Positions 15,644 to 24,699 of a stretch of DNA of 64,000 nt are shown here, one piece after another; the first letter of the stretch is position 1; each line of letters opens with the position of its first letter. The translations under genes and the position numbers were made by a program. The DNA comes from Bacteroidota bacterium (GTDB lineage Bacteria > Bacteroidota > Bacteroidia > Chitinophagales > LD1). Under the pieces are notes generated by a model. The model saw only the letters and a program-made list of their open reading frames with translations, did no database searches and was not told the origin of the DNA. Location: NCBI GenBank assembly GCA_026391075.1, contig JAPLES010000006.1:82173-146172 (forward strand), given 5' to 3'.

Positions 15644-16693
15644 TTATTTTGCCGAAATCTGTTTTGCCCAGCGCGGCAACACAATCATTCCAAGAATTAG
15701 ATAGAGGTAGTAGGAATATAGCCGCCACACCAAAGCAATAGCAGCAGATAAACCCACGGGCATAAACTCACAATTCAAAGCAATGAAAGAAAGTTCAGCC
15801 ACTCCGCTGGCTCCGGGTGTGGAAGGAATACTCGTAAAAATCCACAACACATACTGGCGCGAAAGCGCAGTTAGAAAACTGAAATCGGTCACCGCAAAAG
15901 CGTAGAACAAAGACACGGCTAAAAGATAACGGCTCACCCAATTGATAAGCGTGGCTATTGACATCTTCACCCAGAATGAAAAGGGTTTGTTTTTAAACTC
16001 CTTGGCGGTGAGTTCAATTTCATCACCTATAAAAATGATTTTGCTCTTAAAACGCTCAAGAAATTTTATTTCAGCTAATTGATGAAAGAGTTTTTTTGTT
16101 GCATGAGGAAGTATGAAAAGCGCGGTGCCTAAAAACACACAAGCCGAAAGAATAAGCATGTAACCAATCCAAGCATAGTCCGCAAAACTTCTGATGCCCT
16201 GCATAATTACGTGACCATCTAAATCGGCACAGTGCGGAGAGAGCGTGAGAATTTGATTTCCAAGAAAAAGATAGAGCACGCCAAACACCACCACAAAAGC
16301 GAGGTTGTCAAAAAAACCGTTCAGCATTAACACTGCCACACTTTTACCCGAACTCATGCCGCTTTTAAAAAACAAGTAAAGCACAAAAGGCGTTACACTT
16401 ATTTTAGGTGTAATGCAGGTGCCGAACTCCCACATGGTAATGGTCTGAAAAGTTTTGCGCCAGCTTAAAAAATTTCCGCTGCTCAATCGTATTTTATACA
16501 TGAAGGCTGCATCGCGGCTAACTACGGTAAGAGCCGCTAATAACAAACCAATGATTAGCTTTTGTGAAAAATGAACCGAATGAAGCGCTTCGAAATTAAG
16601 ATTGGTGGCGATGAGATAAATCGAAACGCTTACACCTATGGAAACCGGAAGCAGGATTTTCCATAAATTTATTTTCTGTTCGTTTTGGCTCAC
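15644..16693 (-). CDS. UPF0104/YbhN-like polytopic membrane protein (flippase-like domain)
   Basis: About eight hydrophobic helices are visible over 349 residues. PSTPGASGVAELSFIAL near the C-terminal third is the hallmark PxxPGxxG-E segment of the lysylphosphatidylglycerol synthetase/flippase-like (UPF0104) family. There is no synthase domain, so it is not a complete MprF. The start is GTG at 16693. The substrate is unknown; a lipid or glycan-lipid transport role is inferred. Confidence 0.75.
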   Translation of the reverse strand: MSQNEQKINLWKILLPVSIGVSVSIYLIATNLNFEALHSVHFSQKLIIGLLLAALTVVSRDAAFMYKIRLSSGNFLSWRKTFQTITMWEFGTCITPKISVTPFVLYLFFKSGMSSGKSVAVLMLNGFFDNLAFVVVFGVLYLFLGNQILTLSPHCADLDGHVIMQGIRSFADYAWIGYMLILSACVFLGTALFILPHATKKLFHQLAEIKFLERFKSKIIFIGDEIELTAKEFKNKPFSFWVKMSIATLINWVSRYLLAVSLFYAFAVTDFSFLTALSRQYVLWIFTSIPSTPGASGVAELSFIALNCEFMPVGLSAAIALVWRLYSYYLYLILGMIVLPRWAKQISAK

Positions 16694-16901: not shown

Positions 16902-16932
16902 TTTGGTTTTATAAGCCGTGCTTTTATCTTCG
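16902..16932 (+). promoter_or_regulatory. Promoter of the histidine operon
   Basis: TTTG (16902-16905) and TATCTTCG (16925-16932) are separated by exactly 19 nt. The same arrangement and the same -7 octamer occur before the acyl-CoA dehydrogenase gene. The predicted start is near 16938, about 11 nt before the leader-peptide ATG. Confidence 0.65.
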
Positions 16933-16948
16933 GCACACAATTAAAAAC

Positions 16949-17002
16949 ATGATACGTATTGCACATCACCATCATTCAACAATAGCCCAGCGAAATAATT
17001 GA
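16949..17002 (+). CDS. hisL: Histidine operon leader peptide
   Basis: This 17-residue ORF reads MIRIAHHHHSTIAQRNN. The four consecutive His codons are CAT CAC CAT CAT at 16964-16975. It follows a good promoter by about 11 nt of leader, ends at TGA 17000-17002, and is followed by an intrinsic terminator (17030-17061) and hisG at 17073. This is the arrangement of a transcription attenuator in which ribosomes stall at His codons when charged tRNA-His is scarce. The sequence is unlike the E. coli HisL peptide apart from the His run. Nothing else nearby would explain a run of His codons in this position. Confidence 0.82.
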   Translation: MIRIAHHHHSTIAQRNN

Positions 17003-17050
17003 TGTTTTTGTGTAAGCAAAAAATAAATGAAAGCCCGCTGTAAACATCAG
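16999..17050 (+). promoter_or_regulatory. Candidate antiterminator helix of the his attenuator
   Basis: TTGATGTTT (16999-17007), which spans the leader stop codon, is complementary to AAACATCAG (17042-17050): eight Watson-Crick pairs plus one G-T. The 3' arm is the loop and the first three stem bases of the terminator. A ribosome at the stop codon would cover the 5' arm; a ribosome stalled on the His codons would leave it free. The overlap with the terminator stem is only 3 bp, so exclusivity is not proven. Confidence 0.45.
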
Positions 17051-17061
17051 CGGGCTTTTTT
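17030..17061 (+). terminator. his leader terminator (attenuator)
   Basis: AAGCCCGCTG (17031-17040) and CAGCGGGCTT (17048-17057) form a perfect 10-bp stem with loop TAAACAT, followed by a run of T to 17061. It lies 28 bp after the leader stop codon and 11 bp before the hisG start codon, so it can only act on the his transcript. Confidence 0.88.
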
Positions 17062-17072
17062 AATTCAAAAAT

Positions 17073-17936
17073 ATGACTGAGAAAAAATTACGAATAGCTA
17101 TTCAAAAATCGGGGAGACTGAATGAAGATTCGCTTAAACTGATTAAAGACTGCGGCATTGCCATCGATAATGGAGTTGACCAGTTGAAAGTAACGGCAAG
17201 AAATTTTCCATTAGAACTTTTCTTTTTGCGCAACAGCGATATTCCCCAATACATTGAAGATGGCGTGGCAGACATTGCCATTATTGGCGAGAACTTGCTG
17301 ATTGAAAAACCGCATGAAGTAAAAGTGATTCAACGTTTAGGCTTTAGTAAATGCAAGGTTTCGCTGGCTATACCTAAAAACGAAAACTACACCGGTTTGA
17401 ATTATTTTGATGGAAAGAAACTAGCTACTTCTTATCCTAATACGCTTCAACAGTTTTTGAAGAAGAATAACTTGAGTGCAGAGATTCATGAAATTTCAGG
17501 CTCGGTAGAAATTGCTCCCAACATTGGTTTGGCAGACGGCATCTGCGATATAGTAAGCACCGGTTCTACTCTTTTTAAAAATGGTTTGAAAGAAGTAGAA
17601 GTTTTGTTTCAGTCAGAAGCAGTTTTAATAACCGGCAAAATTTTAAGTGAAGAATCAAAGAACTTGTTCGATAAATTATTGTTTCGAATAAATGCGGTGT
17701 TGTCGGCACGCAATAACAAATACATTTTGTTGAATGCGCCCAACAATAAACTGCAGGAGATAATTGCTTTGCTGCCCGGAATGAAAAGCCCAACTATTCT
17801 TCCTTTAGCGGAAGAAGGCTGGAGTTCGATCCATTCGGTTATAAGTGAAAACGAGTTTTGGGATAAAATTGATGGCTTGAAAAAATTGGGTGCGCAAGGA
17901 ATTCTCGTAGTGCCTATAGAAAAAATGGTTTCCTGA
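17073..17936 (+). CDS. hisG: ATP phosphoribosyltransferase, long form
   Basis: This enzyme catalyses the first step of histidine synthesis, joining ATP and PRPP. The sequence begins with LRIAIQKSGRLNEDSLKLIKD and contains VADIAIIGENLL and ADGICDIVSTGSTLFKNGL, the PRPP-binding loop. At 287 residues it is the long, HisZ-independent type with a C-terminal regulatory domain (about 210-287), so feedback inhibition by histidine is expected from family knowledge. The TGA overlaps the hisD ATG by one base (TGATG). Expression is probably set by the leader at 16902-17061. Confidence 0.95.
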   Translation: MTEKKLRIAIQKSGRLNEDSLKLIKDCGIAIDNGVDQLKVTARNFPLELFFLRNSDIPQYIEDGVADIAIIGENLLIEKPHEVKVIQRLGFSKCKVSLAIPKNENYTGLNYFDGKKLATSYPNTLQQFLKKNNLSAEIHEISGSVEIAPNIGLADGICDIVSTGSTLFKNGLKEVEVLFQSEAVLITGKILSEESKNLFDKLLFRINAVLSARNNKYILLNAPNNKLQEIIALLPGMKSPTILPLAEEGWSSIHSVISENEFWDKIDGLKKLGAQGILVVPIEKMVS

Positions 17937-19225
17937 TGCAGATAATTAAATATCCAAAGCAAAAAGATTTAGAAAAATGGTTGAAGCGACCTTCGGCAGA
18001 TTTTGCTGCTATTGAAAAAACAGTGCAGCAAATTTTGAATGAAGTGAAGAAGAACGGAGATGCCGCTTTAAGAAAATATGCGCTGAAGTTTGATAAAACA
18101 ACAGTGAAAGAGTTGCGTGTTACAGAGAAAGAAATTAAAGAAGCAACAGGACTAGTTGATAAGAAATTAAAGAATGCAATTGAAGTTGCCTATCGCAACA
18201 TCAAAAAATTTCATAGAGCACAGAAGCTTGAAGAAGAAAAAATTGAAACTACTAAAGGCGTAGTTTGTTGGCGCGAAAGCAAAGCCGTACAAAACGTAGG
18301 TTTGTATATACCCGGAGGAACCGCACCTCTATTCTCAACCGTTTTAATGTTGGCTACCCCTGCAAGTATTGCGGGCTGCAAAAGAATTGTGCTGTGTACT
18401 CCACCTAATAAAGAAGGTAAGATTCATCCAGCTATTCTTTTTGCAAGTCAACTGTGCAACGTGCATGAAGTTTACAAAGTTGGTGGTGCGCAAGCTATTG
18501 CTGCAATGGCTTATGGAACAGAAAGAATTAATAAGGTTGACAAACTTTTCGGGCCGGGAAATCAATATGTAACGGTTGCCAAACAAATGGTTCAAAAAGA
18601 TGGAGTAGCTATAGATATGCCCGCAGGACCATCGGAAGTTTTGGTGGTGGGTGATGAAAGTTGCGAACCGTCATTCGTTGCGGCCGATTTACTTTCGCAG
18701 GCAGAACATGGACCAGATTCGCAGGTGATATTTGTTGCGCTGAAAGAGGGTTTGATTAACAGGATTCAAAAGGAGGTGGAGCAGCAGTTGAAGGATTTGC
18801 CACGAAAAGAAATTGCTGTAAAGGCATTGCAACATTCAAAAATAATTTTGGTGAACGACAAAAGCGAAGCTGTTGACATCATCAATCAATACGCTCCTGA
18901 ACATTTGATATTGGCGGTGAAGGATGAAAAGTATTTCATGAAAAATGTGGTGAATGCCGGTTCGGTTTTCATTGGCAATTATACCCCCGAAAGTGCGGGC
19001 GATTATGCCAGCGGCACCAACCATACTTTGCCAACTAATGGTTACGCAAGAGTGTATGGAGGCGTGTCGTTAGATTCTTTTGTAAAGAAAATTACATATC
19101 AGAAAATTTCACCGAAAGGAATTAAGAATATAGGAAGTGTGATTGAGGTAATGGCAGCGGCAGAAAATTTATCGGCACATAAAAACGCAGTGAGCATTCG
19201 TTTGAAAAAATTAAAGAAGAAGTAA
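17936..19225 (+). CDS. hisD: Histidinol dehydrogenase
   Basis: This zinc enzyme carries out the last two oxidations, histidinol to histidine, with NAD+. Recognisable segments are NVGLYIPGGTAPLFSTVLML, MPAGPSEVLV, SQAEHGPDSQV (with metal-binding Glu/His positions) and GTNHTLPTNGYARVYGG (with the active-site His). At 429 residues it is of standard length. Its start overlaps hisG by 1 bp and its TAA overlaps the hisC ATG by 1 bp. Confidence 0.96.
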   Translation: MQIIKYPKQKDLEKWLKRPSADFAAIEKTVQQILNEVKKNGDAALRKYALKFDKTTVKELRVTEKEIKEATGLVDKKLKNAIEVAYRNIKKFHRAQKLEEEKIETTKGVVCWRESKAVQNVGLYIPGGTAPLFSTVLMLATPASIAGCKRIVLCTPPNKEGKIHPAILFASQLCNVHEVYKVGGAQAIAAMAYGTERINKVDKLFGPGNQYVTVAKQMVQKDGVAIDMPAGPSEVLVVGDESCEPSFVAADLLSQAEHGPDSQVIFVALKEGLINRIQKEVEQQLKDLPRKEIAVKALQHSKIILVNDKSEAVDIINQYAPEHLILAVKDEKYFMKNVVNAGSVFIGNYTPESAGDYASGTNHTLPTNGYARVYGGVSLDSFVKKITYQKISPKGIKNIGSVIEVMAAAENLSAHKNAVSIRLKKLKKK

Positions 19226-20298
19226 TGTTTGATGTAGAAAGTATTATTCGTCAGAATGTTCTGAACTTAAAGCCTTATTCATCTGCCCGCGATGAATTTA
19301 AGGGTGAGGCTTCCGTTTTTTTGGATGCTAACGAAAACAGTTTTGGTTCTCCTGTTCCCCTCCCATTAGGGGAAGGGTTAGGGGTGGGGCTTAACCGTTA
19401 TCCTGACCCGTTGCAGAAAAAACTGAAAGAAAAAATCAGCAGTATAAAAGGTGTTCCACCTCAAAATATTTTTTTGGGCAATGGCAGCGATGAAGCTATT
19501 GATGTGTTGTTCCGAATTTTCTGCGAACCGAAAGTTGATCATGTAATTATCTGTCCACCTACTTACGGCATGTATGAAGTAAGCGCGAACATCAATGATG
19601 TAGAGGTTCGGAGAATAAACCTACTTCCATCTTTTGAGTTAGATGTAGAACGAATTTTAGAAAGCTTCGACAAACATTCAAAATTGCTTTTCATCTGTTC
19701 TCCCAATAATCCAACGGCTAATTCCTTTCATGCCGATGATGTGGAGTTGCTGATTCAAAAATTTGGGGGGATTGTGGTGATTGATGAAGCTTACATTAAT
19801 TACTCGCGGCAAAAATCAGCCATTCGACTTCTTACCGAATATGAAAACGTGGTGGTGTTGCAAACTTTTTCGAAAGCTTGGGGCTTGGCTGCTTTGCGGT
19901 TAGGTATGGCTTTCGCTCCGCAAATTATTATTGATTACATGAATAAGGTGAAGCCGCCTTACAACATCAATCAGGCAACGCAGCAACTTGCTATCGGAGC
20001 ACTTGATAATATTGATTGGGTGAATCAGCATATTCGCGAAACCATTGCCGGAAGGAAAAAGCTGGAAGATGCATTGCAACAAATTTCTTTAGTTCAAAAA
20101 ATTTATTCTTCCGATGCAAATTTCATTTTAGTAAAAGTGAAAGAGGCACAGGCTACTTATGACTATCTTGTTTCGCTGGGTATTATTGTGCGCGACCGAA
20201 GTAAAGTAGCCTTATGCGAAGGATGTTTAAGAATAACCGTAGGAACAGAATCTGAAAACCGCGCTTTACTAAACGCGCTAAATAAATTTCAAGCATGA
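19225..20298 (+). CDS. hisC: Histidinol-phosphate aminotransferase with a repeat-encoded insertion
   Basis: This PLP aminotransferase converts imidazole-acetol phosphate to histidinol phosphate. [38 protein letters not shown] and QTFSKAWG (PLP Lys about 217) are the family motifs. Residues 44-55 ([12 protein letters not shown]) are an unusual insert just before LNRYPDPLQ. The DNA encoding it (19357-19389) is a CCCCTCCC/GGGG-type element like the dispersed intergenic repeats here, inserted in frame. This loop lies near the substrate-binding N-terminal arm, so the enzyme tolerates it. The gene overlaps hisD by 1 bp and hisB by 4 bp. Confidence 0.94.
19357..19389 (+). repeat. Dispersed repeat copy inside hisC (R2 family)
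   Basis: A C/T-rich arm (CCCCTCCC, 19357-19364), then ATTA, then G/A-rich GGGGAAGGG and GGGGTGGGG. The same arm-loop-arm-tail pattern occurs between genes at 24153-24190 and 35082-35122. It is translated as part of [12 protein letters not shown]. Confidence 0.65.
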
Positions 20299-21428
20299 AA
20301 AAAGTTTTATTCATTGACCGTGACGGCACCTTAATTTTAGAAACCGATGATTTCAAAATTGAAAAATTTGAAAAGGTGGTTTTCTATCCGCAAGTATTTT
20401 ATTGGTTGGGCAAAATTGTCCGCGAGTTAGATTATGAGCTGGCGGTGGTCACCAATCAAGATGGTTTGGGAACTCCTGATTTTTTAGAGCAAGATTTTTG
20501 GCCGGTGCAGAATTTTATTGTCAAAACATTCCATGATGACGGCATTTCTTTCGCTGATGTATATATTGATAAATCTTTTCCTCACGAAAACCTATCTACA
20601 CGCAAACCGGGTACAGGTATGCTCACTAAATACTTTTCTACCGAATACGATTTGAAAAATTCATTTGTAATTGGTGATAGAATTACTGATGTGCAGTTGG
20701 CAAAAAATCTTGGTGCTAAATGTTTTTACCTAAACGATGGTCGAGGTCTTGGAGCTGCTGAAGTGAAAGACAATCAGGAAGAACTAAAAAAATCTATTGC
20801 TCTTGAAAGCCGAGACTGGGAGCAAATTTATAATTACTTAAAAGGCGGACCGCGACAAGCCACTCATTCAAGAAATACGAAAGAGACGCAAATAAATGTT
20901 GAACTGAATTTGGATGGAACCGGGAAGGCAGAAATCTCAACCGGTCTGAGTTTTTTAAACCATATGCTGGAACAAATTGCAAGGCACGGCAATATTGATT
21001 TGAAAATTTCTGCTAAAGGCGATTTGCAAATTGATGAACACCACACAATAGAAGACACCGCCATAACACTTGGTGAAGCGTTTGCATTTGCATTAGGAAA
21101 TAAAAAGGGGCTTGAACGTTATGGATTTTGTTTGCCAATGGATGATGCTTTAGCACAAGTGGCCATTGATTTTGGCGGAAGAAACTGGATTGAATGGAAG
21201 GCAGAATTCAAGCGAGAAAAAATTGGAGACGTTCCTACCGAAATGTTCTTTCATTTCTTTAAGTCGTTCAGCGATACTGCCAAATGCAATTTGAATATTA
21301 AAGCAGAAGGTGAAAACGAGCATCATAAAATAGAAGCCGTTTTTAAGGCATTTGCTAAGGCAATTAAAATGGCAGTAAAACGCGACTTGAACAACCTTCA
21401 ACTTCCCTCTACTAAAGGAGTGCTTTAA
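20295..21428 (+). CDS. hisB: Bifunctional histidinol-phosphatase / imidazoleglycerol-phosphate dehydratase
   Basis: The N-terminal half (1-165) is a HAD phosphatase with FIDRDGT (Asp8 and Asp10) and [12 protein letters not shown]. The C-terminal half (about 191-377) is the dehydratase, with [21 protein letters not shown] and DEHHTIEDT metal-binding His motifs and the PSTKGVL end. In E. coli HisB the phosphatase binds zinc through CxHx(6)CxC. Here the equivalent stretch (92-105, [14 protein letters not shown]) keeps one His but has no Cys and is about three residues shorter, so zinc is probably not bound. The gene overlaps hisC by 4 bp and hisH by 1 bp. Confidence 0.95.
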
Positions 21429-21979
21429 TGAAACTGGTTGTTATCAATTACGGTGCAGGTAATACGCAATCGGTAAAGTTTGCTTTTCAGCGGTTAGGCA
21501 TTACTCCTGTTTTATCGGATAGTAGAGAAGAAATTCTTTCAGCCGATAAAATTATTTTCCCGGGAGTTGGTCATGCAAAAGCGGCAATGGAAGTGTTGCG
21601 AGAAAAGGGTTTGCATGTTTTAATTCCACAATTAAAGCAACCGGTGCTTGGAATTTGTTTAGGTATGCAGTTGATGTGTAAGTTTAGTGAAGAAGGCAAT
21701 GTAGATTGTCTGGGTATCTTCAATGAAAGTGTAAAGCTATTTGAACCAAAGTTGAAAGTACCGCATATAGGCTGGAACAAAACAGATGGCAATGATGACT
21801 GGTATTATTTTGTTCACAGCTATTATGTGCCTCAAAATGAATTCACCACATTGAGCTGCAACTACATCACCCAATTTTCTGCGGCTATTCAAAAAGAGAA
21901 TTTTTCTGCGGTTCAATTTCATCCTGAAAAAAGTGGCCAGGCCGGAGAAGATTTTTTGAAAAAATTTATTGAAGCGTAA
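21428..21979 (+). CDS. hisH: Imidazole glycerol phosphate synthase, glutamine amidotransferase subunit
   Basis: This class I amidotransferase feeds ammonia to HisF. The triad is visible: Cys77 in GICLGMQ, and His165 and Glu167 in [17 protein letters not shown] and [11 protein letters not shown] are family segments. At 183 residues it is slightly short but complete. Starts and stops overlap neighbours by one base on both sides, which favours equal synthesis with hisF partners. Confidence 0.95.
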
Positions 21980-22695
21980 TGGAAATAATTCCTGCCATAG
22001 ACATTATAGACGGAAAATGTGTGCGCCTTTCACAGGGCGATTACGCGCAGAAGATCATTTACAATGAGAATCCATTGGAGGTTGCCAAACAATTTGAAGC
22101 AGCCGGTTTACAACGATTGCACTTGGTAGATTTAGACGGAGCAAAGGCAAGTCATATTGTTAACTATAAAACTTTGCAAACAATCAGTTCGCAAACAAAA
22201 CTCAAGATAGATTTTGGTGGAGGAATAAAAACCGATGAGGATATAAAAATCGCTTTCGATTCAGGTGCACAACAAATTACTGCGGGAAGTATTGCTGTTA
22301 AATCGCGCTACACTGTTTTGCGTTGGCTAGATAAATACGGAGCAGAAAAAATTATTCTGGGAGCCGATGTAAAAGATGAAATGATAGCAGTGAGTGGATG
22401 GCAGGAAAACAGCAACATCAATCTCTTCGGATTTTTGAAAGATTATGTGGCTCATGGAATTCAGTATGTCATCTGCACCGACATAGCAAAAGATGGAATG
22501 TTGCAAGGCTCTTCGATTTCTCTCTATAAAAAAATTCTTCAACAATTTCCATCTCTAAAATTAATTGCAAGTGGTGGAGTAAGTGATTTAAATGAATTGA
22601 ATGTTTTGAGCGAAACCGGTTTACACGGAGCAATTATCGGGAAGGCGATTTATGAAGGGAGAATTTCATTGGTAGATTTGTCAAAATTTAATTGA
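21979..22695 (+). CDS. hisA: ProFAR isomerase
   Basis: This half-barrel duplicated TIM-barrel enzyme performs an Amadori rearrangement in histidine synthesis. [18 protein letters not shown] carries the first catalytic Asp, and [10 protein letters not shown] carries the second. [10 protein letters not shown] and [11 protein letters not shown] are the two phosphate-binding loops. At 238 residues it is of normal length. HisF begins with GTG in the base immediately after its stop. Confidence 0.95.
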
Positions 22696-23448
22696 GTGTT
22701 AGCCAAACGAATTATTCCATGCTTAGATATTAAAGACGGGCGCACCGTAAAGGGTGTGAACTTTGAAAACCTGCGCGATGCCGGTGACCCGGTGGAGCTT
22801 TCAAAAATATATACAGATGAAGGGGCAGACGAGTTAGTGTTTTTGGATATTACGGCTACACACGAAAAAAGAAAAACGCTTGTTGCTTTAGTGGAACGGA
22901 TAGCTGCCACCATCAATATTCCCTTTACTGTTGGCGGTGGAATTTCGACTGTAGAAGACGTCTATGCTTTACTTCAAAGTGGGGCAGATAAAATTTCTTT
23001 GAATTCGGCAGCAGTCCGAAATCCGAAATTGATTTCGGACATTGCTGAGAAATTTGGGAGTCAATGTTTGGTGTTGGCTATAGACGCGAAACAAACAACG
23101 AATTGGAAAGTGTATTTAAACGGAGGAAGATTAGAAACTGAACTAGTTTTGTTTGAATGGGCAAAAGAAGGAGAGCAACGCGGAGCTGGTGAAATTCTCT
23201 TTACTTCTATGAACCATGATGGAACAAAAAATGGTTTTGCGAATGAAGCTTTGCAGCAACTTTCAGAAACGGTCAATATACCGGTTATTGCTTCTGGTGG
23301 CGCTGGAACGATGGAGCATTTCTATAATACGTTTACCTATGGAAAAGCAGATGCGGCTTTAGCTGCCAGCATTTTTCATTTTAAAGAAATCGGAATCAAC
23401 AATTTGAAAAACTATTTACATCAAAAAGGAATAACAGTAAGATTATGA
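22696..23448 (+). CDS. hisF: Imidazole glycerol phosphate synthase, cyclase subunit
   Basis: It makes imidazole glycerol phosphate and AICAR from PRFAR, using ammonia from His[20 protein letters not shown] has the catalytic Asp near 11, VLAIDAK the second Asp, and VGGGIST and [11 protein letters not shown] the phosphate loops. The start is GTG at 22696, placed directly after the hisA stop; the sequence [12 protein letters not shown] confirms it because the family begins there. The stop overlaps the hisIE ATG by 4 bp. Confidence 0.95.
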
Positions 23449-24041
23449 AGATAGATTTTGCCAAAGGGAACGGACTCGTTCCTGCCATTATTCAAGATGC
23501 TATAACCAATAAAGTTTTGATGTTGGGCTTTATGAACGAAGAAGCTTTTCAGAAGACACAGAACGAAAAGTGCATTACTTTTTTCAGCCGAACAAAAAAT
23601 CGTTTATGGACGAAGGGCGAAGAAAGCGGCAACTATCTGAATGTAGTTTCTATGCACATAGATTGCGACAATGACACGCTTCTCATTAAGGTAAATCCGG
23701 TTGGTGCAGTTTGCCATACTGGTGCTGAAACATGCTGGAATGAAAAAAATGGAAAGGATGAATTGCGTTTTCTTTTGGAGTTAGAGCAAACTATTGAAAT
23801 TCGGAAAAATTCTCCTGCTCAAGACTCATATACTTCAAAGCTCTTTGCAGAAGGCATTAATAAGGTTGCGCAAAAAGTTGGTGAAGAGGCAATAGAAATG
23901 GTTATAGAATCGAAAGACAGCAACAATGATTTATTTCTAAATGAATCGGCAGACTTACTCTTTCATTACTTGATATTAATTCAAGCAAAAGGCTTCAAGT
24001 TGCAAGATGTAATTGCGAAACTTGAAGGCCGGAAAAAGTAA
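23445..24041 (+). CDS. hisI: Bifunctional phosphoribosyl-AMP cyclohydrolase / phosphoribosyl-ATP pyrophosphatase
   Basis: Residues 1-105 form the HisI cyclohydrolase, with [26 protein letters not shown] and the [10 protein letters not shown] zinc segment. Residues 112-198 form the HisE pyrophosphohydrolase, with [12 protein letters not shown] and [13 protein letters not shown]. The fusion is common (hisIE). It is the last gene of the operon; a strong terminator follows at 24117-24150. The complete order G-D-C-B-H-A-F-IE equals the enterobacterial order. Confidence 0.95.
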
Positions 24042-24192: not shown

Positions 24193-24699
24193 TCAATGAT
24201 GACTATGGTCGCCATGTTCGTGAACATGACCATGTTCTAATTCTACCTGATGTGCTTCGCGTACTTCAACAATCTCTCCGCTGAATAAAAGCGGTTTGCC
24301 TGCAAATGGATGGTTTAAGTCAACGGTTACTTTATCGAGAATGATATTTACGATTCGTCCTTGAAAAGGATTTCCGTTTTGATCCTGCAATGGAACTACG
24401 TTGCCAACGAATAACATTTCATCCTGCACTATTCCATCAACGGCAAAAACATTTTTGTCTAATTGAATTACGGCCTGCTCATCATATTCACCATAACCAT
24501 CTTCGGCATTCAATTGAAAGTTGAATTGGTTTCCGGCAATTAAACCTTCGAGGTTTTTTTCAAATTTATCTAACACATTTCCGTGACCGAATAAAAACGC
24601 AAACGGATTCTCTTTGTCCGTTGCATCTACTACTTGTCCGTTTGGTTCGTTTCTTAATTCATAGGTCAATTTAACCACAGTATTTGGCGCTGCTTTCAT
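24193..24699 (-). CDS. FKBP-type peptidyl-prolyl isomerase, SlyD-like
   Basis: The 168-aa protein begins with VVKLTYELRNEPNGQVVDAT, continues with FLFGHGNVLDKFEKNLEGL (isomerase core) and has an insert-in-flap region LNAEDGYGEYDEQAVIQLDK, as in SlyD. DLNHPFAGKPLLFSGEIV completes the FKBP fold. The C-terminus is His-rich (HGHVHEHGDHSHH), as in SlyD metal-binding tails, so nickel or zinc handling is possible. Chaperone and prolyl isomerase roles follow from the family. A promoter with TTTG-N18-TACTTTTG lies upstream at 24784-24813. Confidence 0.9.
   Translation of the reverse strand: MKAAPNTVVKLTYELRNEPNGQVVDATDKENPFAFLFGHGNVLDKFEKNLEGLIAGNQFNFQLNAEDGYGEYDEQAVIQLDKNVFAVDGIVQDEMLFVGNVVPLQDQNGNPFQGRIVNIILDKVTVDLNHPFAGKPLLFSGEIVEVREAHQVELEHGHVHEHGDHSHH

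Follow-up and report, generated by a model that had tools for sequence, protein, structure and literature searches.

What controls the complete histidine operon carried by this stretch of Bacteroidota DNA (the window, 64,000 nucleotides in all)? The operon hisG-hisD-hisC-hisB(NB)-hisH-hisA-hisF-hisIE was assigned to the forward strand at 17073–24041 from open reading frames and NCBIfam matches. All eight genes exceeded the NCBIfam cut-off, and the operon was complete and nearly gap-free. The hisG ATG lies at 17073, and 380 bp, with the leader region inside, separate the operon from an opposite-strand gene at 15644–16693. Judged from sequence and comparison, this leader is in all likelihood a ribosome-mediated transcription attenuator, a switch that would very probably restrict expression of the his genes to times of histidine shortage.

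Putative promoter, leader ORF and terminator

A putative promoter of the Bacteroidota sigma type was located on the forward strand at 16902–16932 (TTTG at 16902–16905, N19, TATCTTCG at 16925–16932), with the transcript start predicted near 16938–16940. Loci L002, L004 and L005 retain TATCTTCG. Scanning for sigma-70 promoters gave none on the forward strand, as expected for Bacteroidota. The leader ORF (MIRIAHHHHSTIAQRNN*, 17 codons, forward strand, 16949–17002) runs from an ATG at 16949 to a TGA at 17000–17002, and four of its 17 codons are consecutive His codons (CAT CAC CAT CAT, 16964–16975). The TTTG-N19-TATCTTCG promoter and the 17-codon ORF with its His run had been described in a first-pass annotation of this DNA, and both are present in the sequence.

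The terminator before hisG, also described there, was confirmed from the sequence as GAAAGCCCGCTG-TAAACAT-CAGCGGGCTTTT, 17029–17059, a helix of 12 bp with one G-U at its base, followed by TT. Its 5′ arm (segment 3, GAAAGCCCGCTG, 17029–17040) and its 3′ arm with U-tract (segment 4, CAGCGGGCTTTT, 17048–17061), both on the forward strand, were delimited from sequence, comparison and folds. The complete leader RNA folded at z −5.1 relative to dinucleotide shuffles. In the 64-kb window, terminators preceded by a short ORF that contains an amino-acid run were sought; the scan returned the his locus, an unrelated Pro match and two antisense reads of the his hairpin. Genome-wide, the His-codon pattern by itself was too frequent to discriminate; a second leader copy was looked for in the genome and not found.

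Conservation across Bacteroidota

Upstream regions were collected from 177 distinct hisG loci, comprising close relatives, 80 named genome records and a phylum-wide sample. To count as a His leader, an ORF had to start with ATG, span 6–40 codons, have three or more His among seven residues and lie no more than 270 nt from hisG. The search of relatives for short ORFs with at least three His codons before hisG, suggested in the first-pass annotation, was positive in 163 of the 177 unique regions; the same ORF rule gave 24 for the next residue, Leu, and 0–4 in dinucleotide-shuffled sequences. A set of 167 leaders was obtained with a looser start rule than that behind the 177-locus count. Median leader length in this set was 18 codons, and 164/167 began with ATG. 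The Bacteroidota −7 element TAnnTTTG was found within 70 nt 5′ of the leader ATG at 89/167 loci, against 7.5 expected from shuffles, and a strong terminator followed 141/167 leaders, against 1.2% in shuffles.

These counts bear on whether the hairpin could be the ordinary terminator of an upstream transcript, with the His-rich ORF a coincidence. Intrinsic terminators are common, and four His codons may fall in a short ORF by chance. However, the upstream gene at 15644–16693 points the other way, and ORF and terminator recur jointly before hisG in most of the sampled phylum. The comparative data already contradict coincidence, whose probability we regard as negligible.

A further 46 genomes were examined. 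None of 33 loci with a HisG 22–34% identical (one without any match) had a His leader, and 8 of 13 loci with a HisG 40–46% identical did. Since the leader is absent with divergent HisG, the element tracks one HisG lineage and is not a search artefact. Doubt had been expressed earlier about how often such leaders occur in Bacteroidota; the element proved very common with window-like HisG, and a structured element 5′ of hisG is reported in the main text of a published study (PMC9723704).

Control could instead be translational or mixed, the hairpin limiting hisG initiation besides, or in place of, ending transcription. In the window the hairpin ends 13 nt 5′ of the hisG ATG, which would suit such a role. 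Among relatives, however, this distance varies from about 8 to 80 nt, and the U-tract after the hairpin would be superfluous for a translational block. We consider this reading very improbable, and transcription attenuation is followed below.

Antiterminator

Pairing was scored at the 141 loci with a good terminator by comparing the stretch from the second His codon to the terminator with each terminator arm. The score with the 5′ arm was 19.3 versus 12.8 in shuffled sequences, and with the 3′ arm 12.75 versus 13.5. In 125/141 loci the best 5′-arm partner began 1–20 nt ahead of the leader stop codon. In the window this partner is segment 2 (CAGCG, 16988–16992, forward strand), which lies in the last leader codons and can pair with CGCTG at 17036–17040 in segment 3; it was assigned from the pairing scores, the partner-swap test and covariation in alignment A1, as given below. 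Segment 2 reads CAGCGAGGT in L002 and CAGCGAGG in L005; the window has CAGCGAAAT where its relatives have CAGCGAGGT. Typical of Flavobacteriaceae is CTCAAGCG-a-GGT with ACC-CGTTTGAG; elsewhere CTCAGGTG pairs with CATCTGA, CCGGTAGGCT with GGCTTACCG and TTGGCAGGCT with AGGCCTGCCA. The pairing is kept although both strands vary among lineages.

Alignment A1 (46 sequences, MAFFT) was used to count double-sided changes, and these counts do not remove relatedness. The terminator helix was paired in 96.7% of cells with 42 such changes, and the antiterminator helix in 86.7% with 22, versus 3.0 shuffled; one antiterminator pair switches from A-U to G-C in 17 sequences. Compensating changes in the two hairpins, which the first-pass annotation had named as a check, are therefore present in relatives, with the antiterminator being that of segment 2 and not the pair drawn at first. 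Because the A1 counts keep relatedness, a partner-swap test was added for 71 non-redundant loci. Segment 2 with the 5′ arm scored 15.4 versus 12.0 for swapped partners (z 11.4, 0/2000). Over the same loci, segment 2 with the 3′ arm gave z 1.5, and strand B (see below) with either arm, or strand A with the 5′ arm, gave no significant result. The predicted conserved antiterminator is segment 2, 16988–16992, with 17036–17040. In the window AGCCCAGC can also pair with GCGGGCT of the terminator 3′ arm (duplex −11.4); as a candidate antiterminator this was rejected, there being no 3′-arm excess across loci.

The antiterminator of the window is only 5 bp, short compared with relatives, because the GG of the relatives’ CAGCGAGGT is AA here. 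This weakness is the main soft spot of the attenuator reading in the window. Duplex energies were −8.4 kcal/mol for CAGCG:CGCTG and −20.8 kcal/mol for the complete terminator; the latter is far more stable, so antitermination must be kinetic.

Hairpin of the His codons and the leader stop

A second helix was predicted from minimum free energy (MFE) folds and the swap test. Its 5′ strand A (TTGCACATCACCATCA, 16959–16974, forward strand) covers codons 4–9 including His codons, and its 3′ strand B (TGATGTTTTTGTGTAA, 17000–17015, forward strand) starts at the leader stop codon. Segment 2 is enclosed in the loop of this A:B hairpin. The region is AT-rich and aligns poorly in A1, and a per-locus swap test therefore replaced the column-wise test; A with B gave z 5.1 (0/2000, 71 non-redundant loci). 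Across loci strand A takes in the leader start and the His codons; examples are TTTATTCAATCACATCATCA with TGATTATGTATTGAATAAA (L069), TTTATGCATCATCATCAT with ATGATATTGTGCATAAA (L090) and TAACGCACTACATCATCA with TGAAGATGTTGTGCTTTA (L047).

Strand B bears on the antiterminator first drawn for this locus, a complement of 16999–17007 with 17042–17050, the latter being the loop and the start of the terminator 3′ arm. The 9-bp match exists (eight Watson-Crick pairs and one U-G), and its duplex of −8.3 kcal/mol equals the conserved alternative. The window and L004 alone have the whole pairing (TTGATGTTT:AAACATCAG); L002 keeps part of it, and L005, like all other members of the family, lacks it. Across 74 loci of the phylum it showed no excess over swapped partners (own 8.70 versus swapped 8.36, 173/2000), and it was never the MFE structure in the stalled-ribosome fold. 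Its 5′ arm is the first half of B, since B spans 17000–17015, and that strand co-varies with the His-codon strand instead. In the window and L004 genomes, and only there, the helix could reinforce the weakened segment 2; as the antiterminator proper it is very improbable. The first-pass annotation had itself remarked that its antiterminator takes only three terminator stem bases. This was a real warning, the pairing not being conserved. Its attenuation reading stands as to an E. coli-type his attenuator, which the comparison strongly supports, and falls as to the antiterminator arm, which was misassigned.

On this basis a Bacteroidota hisG leader group is defined here by a His-rich leader, an antiterminator strand at the ORF end complementary to the terminator 5′ arm, and the A:B hairpin, all found in the window. 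The parts, their conservation and the co-variation of segments 2/3, 3/4 and A/B were computed directly from the sequences.

Folding and proposed mechanism

RNAs of the window were folded for each ribosome position. The free full-length RNA formed the A:B hairpin and the terminator (MFE). For RNA from 16979 on, the part exposed when the ribosome stalls in the His run, the MFE structure was CAGCG 16988–16992:CGCTG 17036–17040 around a small hairpin, and it stayed so only until the terminator 3′ arm emerged. The small hairpin (approximately TTTTTGT-GTAA-GCAAAAA, 17005–17022, forward strand), taken from MFE folds of exposed RNA, lies between segment 2 and the terminator and forms once strand A is occupied; similar sequence is kept in L002, L004 and L005. 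For a ribosome positioned on the stop codon, the terminator alone was left.

The sequence of events inferred from these structures, from initiation of the transcript through leader translation and ribosome stalling to termination and its dependence on histidine, is as follows. RNA polymerase would start near 16938, and a ribosome would translate the 17-codon leader. With sufficient His-tRNA the ribosome would reach the stop codon and cover segment 2, as the size of its footprint suggests, so that the terminator at 17029–17059 would form and transcription would stop before hisG. With low His-tRNA it would stall on the His codons and occupy strand A. Segment 2, left free, would then pair with the terminator 5′ arm (CAGCG:CGCTG, with the small hairpin between), the terminator would not form, and hisG-hisIE would be transcribed. 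Without translation, A would pair with B and the terminator would be favoured; as segment 2 lies inside the A:B loop, it should be trapped in an untranslated leader, and transcription should end. It is conceivable that the untranslated leader forms a pseudoknot with the opposite result, read-through.

The leader thus has a short predicted ORF in which codons for the regulated amino acid abound and which is presumably translated, and a predicted intrinsic terminator between this leader and the first structural gene. Its antiterminator, mutually exclusive with the terminator according to the co-variation, would be masked at the stop and free on a His stall.

Relation to known attenuators

The his attenuator of E. 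coli and Salmonella has a leader peptide with His codons and a terminator just before hisG. Its antiterminator strand in E. coli has the 5′ arm of the terminator as partner, and one hairpin includes the His codons. The window shares with this system (RF00514) the His leader, the terminator, the 5′-arm antiterminator and the His-codon hairpin; it differs in a shorter leader and in having no sequence-family match. Segment 2 is inside the leader ORF and the A:B loop, whereas the corresponding element of E. coli his is a strand of an A:B/C:D series. In the E. coli trp attenuator strands 2:3 form against 3:4, and a ribosome at the stop codon masks strand 2. The window leader follows the same 2:3 versus 3:4 logic, but the partner of its strand 1 (A) is a separate post-stop strand, B, and not strand 2. 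More tentatively, and with doubt slightly outweighing belief, the Bacteroidota his leader may form a separate architecture, A-2-B-3-4. Its antiterminator strand would lie in the last leader codons, in the loop of a hairpin between the His codons and the stop region, and the untranslated leader would trap that strand or let it join the terminator arm in an H-type pseudoknot. In Bacteroidia this leader, which Rfam lacks, would be the ancestral his-operon regulator.

No Rfam family reached threshold in the window, and none of the Rfam amino-acid leader families gave a gathering match in the window or 20 relatives. His_leader (RF00514) scored 27.0 bits on the window against a gathering threshold of 49, below membership. 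Thr_leader scored higher (28.2 bits), and the His_leader score therefore stems from a generic terminator. At a permissive threshold 74 weak matches were obtained, mostly terminator-driven.

As to precedence, Lopatovskaya et al. in 2010 are said to have perhaps listed Bacteroidetes attenuators and could have priority for the general idea. According to its main text, a transcriptome study of Flavobacterium psychrophilum (2021; PMC9723704) found strong clues that leader peptides attenuate amino-acid operons, and upstream of hisG a structured 5′ element that has no Rfam match and is conserved among other genera of Flavobacteriaceae; on the strength of these reports priority for the general idea lies there. 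The same gene and phylum are concerned; that main text gives no anatomy of the element and covers Flavobacteriaceae only. Leader peptides were described as known only in Proteobacteria and Actinobacteria, besides the authors’ own from Firmicutes (Naville and Gautheret, 2010; PMC2965389). The latter include hisS/hisZ leaders (PMC2965389), and Firmicutes histidine leaders were extended in 2022 (PMC9413887). By their descriptions these likewise have a His-rich leader with comparatively predicted terminator and antiterminator, in another phylum (PMC9413887, PMC2965389). The present analysis adds the anatomy of the leader, shows how far it extends through Bacteroidia and into some neighbouring families, and corrects the antiterminator assignment. 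The attenuator is ordinary in kind, in a phylum where such elements are thinly described. Throughout Bacteroidia, a group with hardly any described leaders of this sort and no Rfam family for them, the results indicate that hisG is usually preceded by a control of the classical amino-acid attenuation type. The leader model can be used for a covariance family, for re-annotating His-rich mini-ORFs and for tests of ribosome-polymerase coupling in Bacteroidota.

Variant leaders and neighbouring features

Loci L003 and L026, from metagenome assemblies, have a hisG 97% identical to that of the window and no leader; their upstream region is unrelated, and hisG sits behind a ribonuclease-G-like gene. 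The missing leader reflects loss, rearrangement or misassembly. In L006, also a metagenome assembly, the leader is degraded, without ATG and with only His-Cys-His. It still has segment 2 (TAGCGAGG), strand B and the terminator, and is perhaps a leader losing its sensor. Both cases count against the attenuator reading. No hisG was found in 14 of 30 genomes of the window’s family, many of them >95% complete, a sign of patchy histidine prototrophy.

Two complete tandem His attenuators, about 360 and 175 nt before hisG, were seen in L043, L061 and L094 (Ancylomarina and a Marinifilaceae metagenome-assembled genome). Each unit has its own His leader, a CAGGTGAG/CAGGTGAA antiterminator strand and a CCAACCTG/CAGGTTGG-type terminator. 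Longer leaders with up to about 10 scattered His and GTG starts, such as MKRTKLHISHPHHDVHHLHQGHHHA, occur in L198, L199, L201 and L206 from other Bacteroidota families and are possibly a second leader type. Near a Cloacibacterium hisG locus a Flavo-1 RNA (RF01705, 46 bits) was matched at L103:529–614 on the reverse strand. In the window, a SlyD-like peptidyl-prolyl isomerase with a His-rich tail (HGHVHEHGDHSHH) is encoded at 24193–24699 on the reverse strand, convergent with the his operon.
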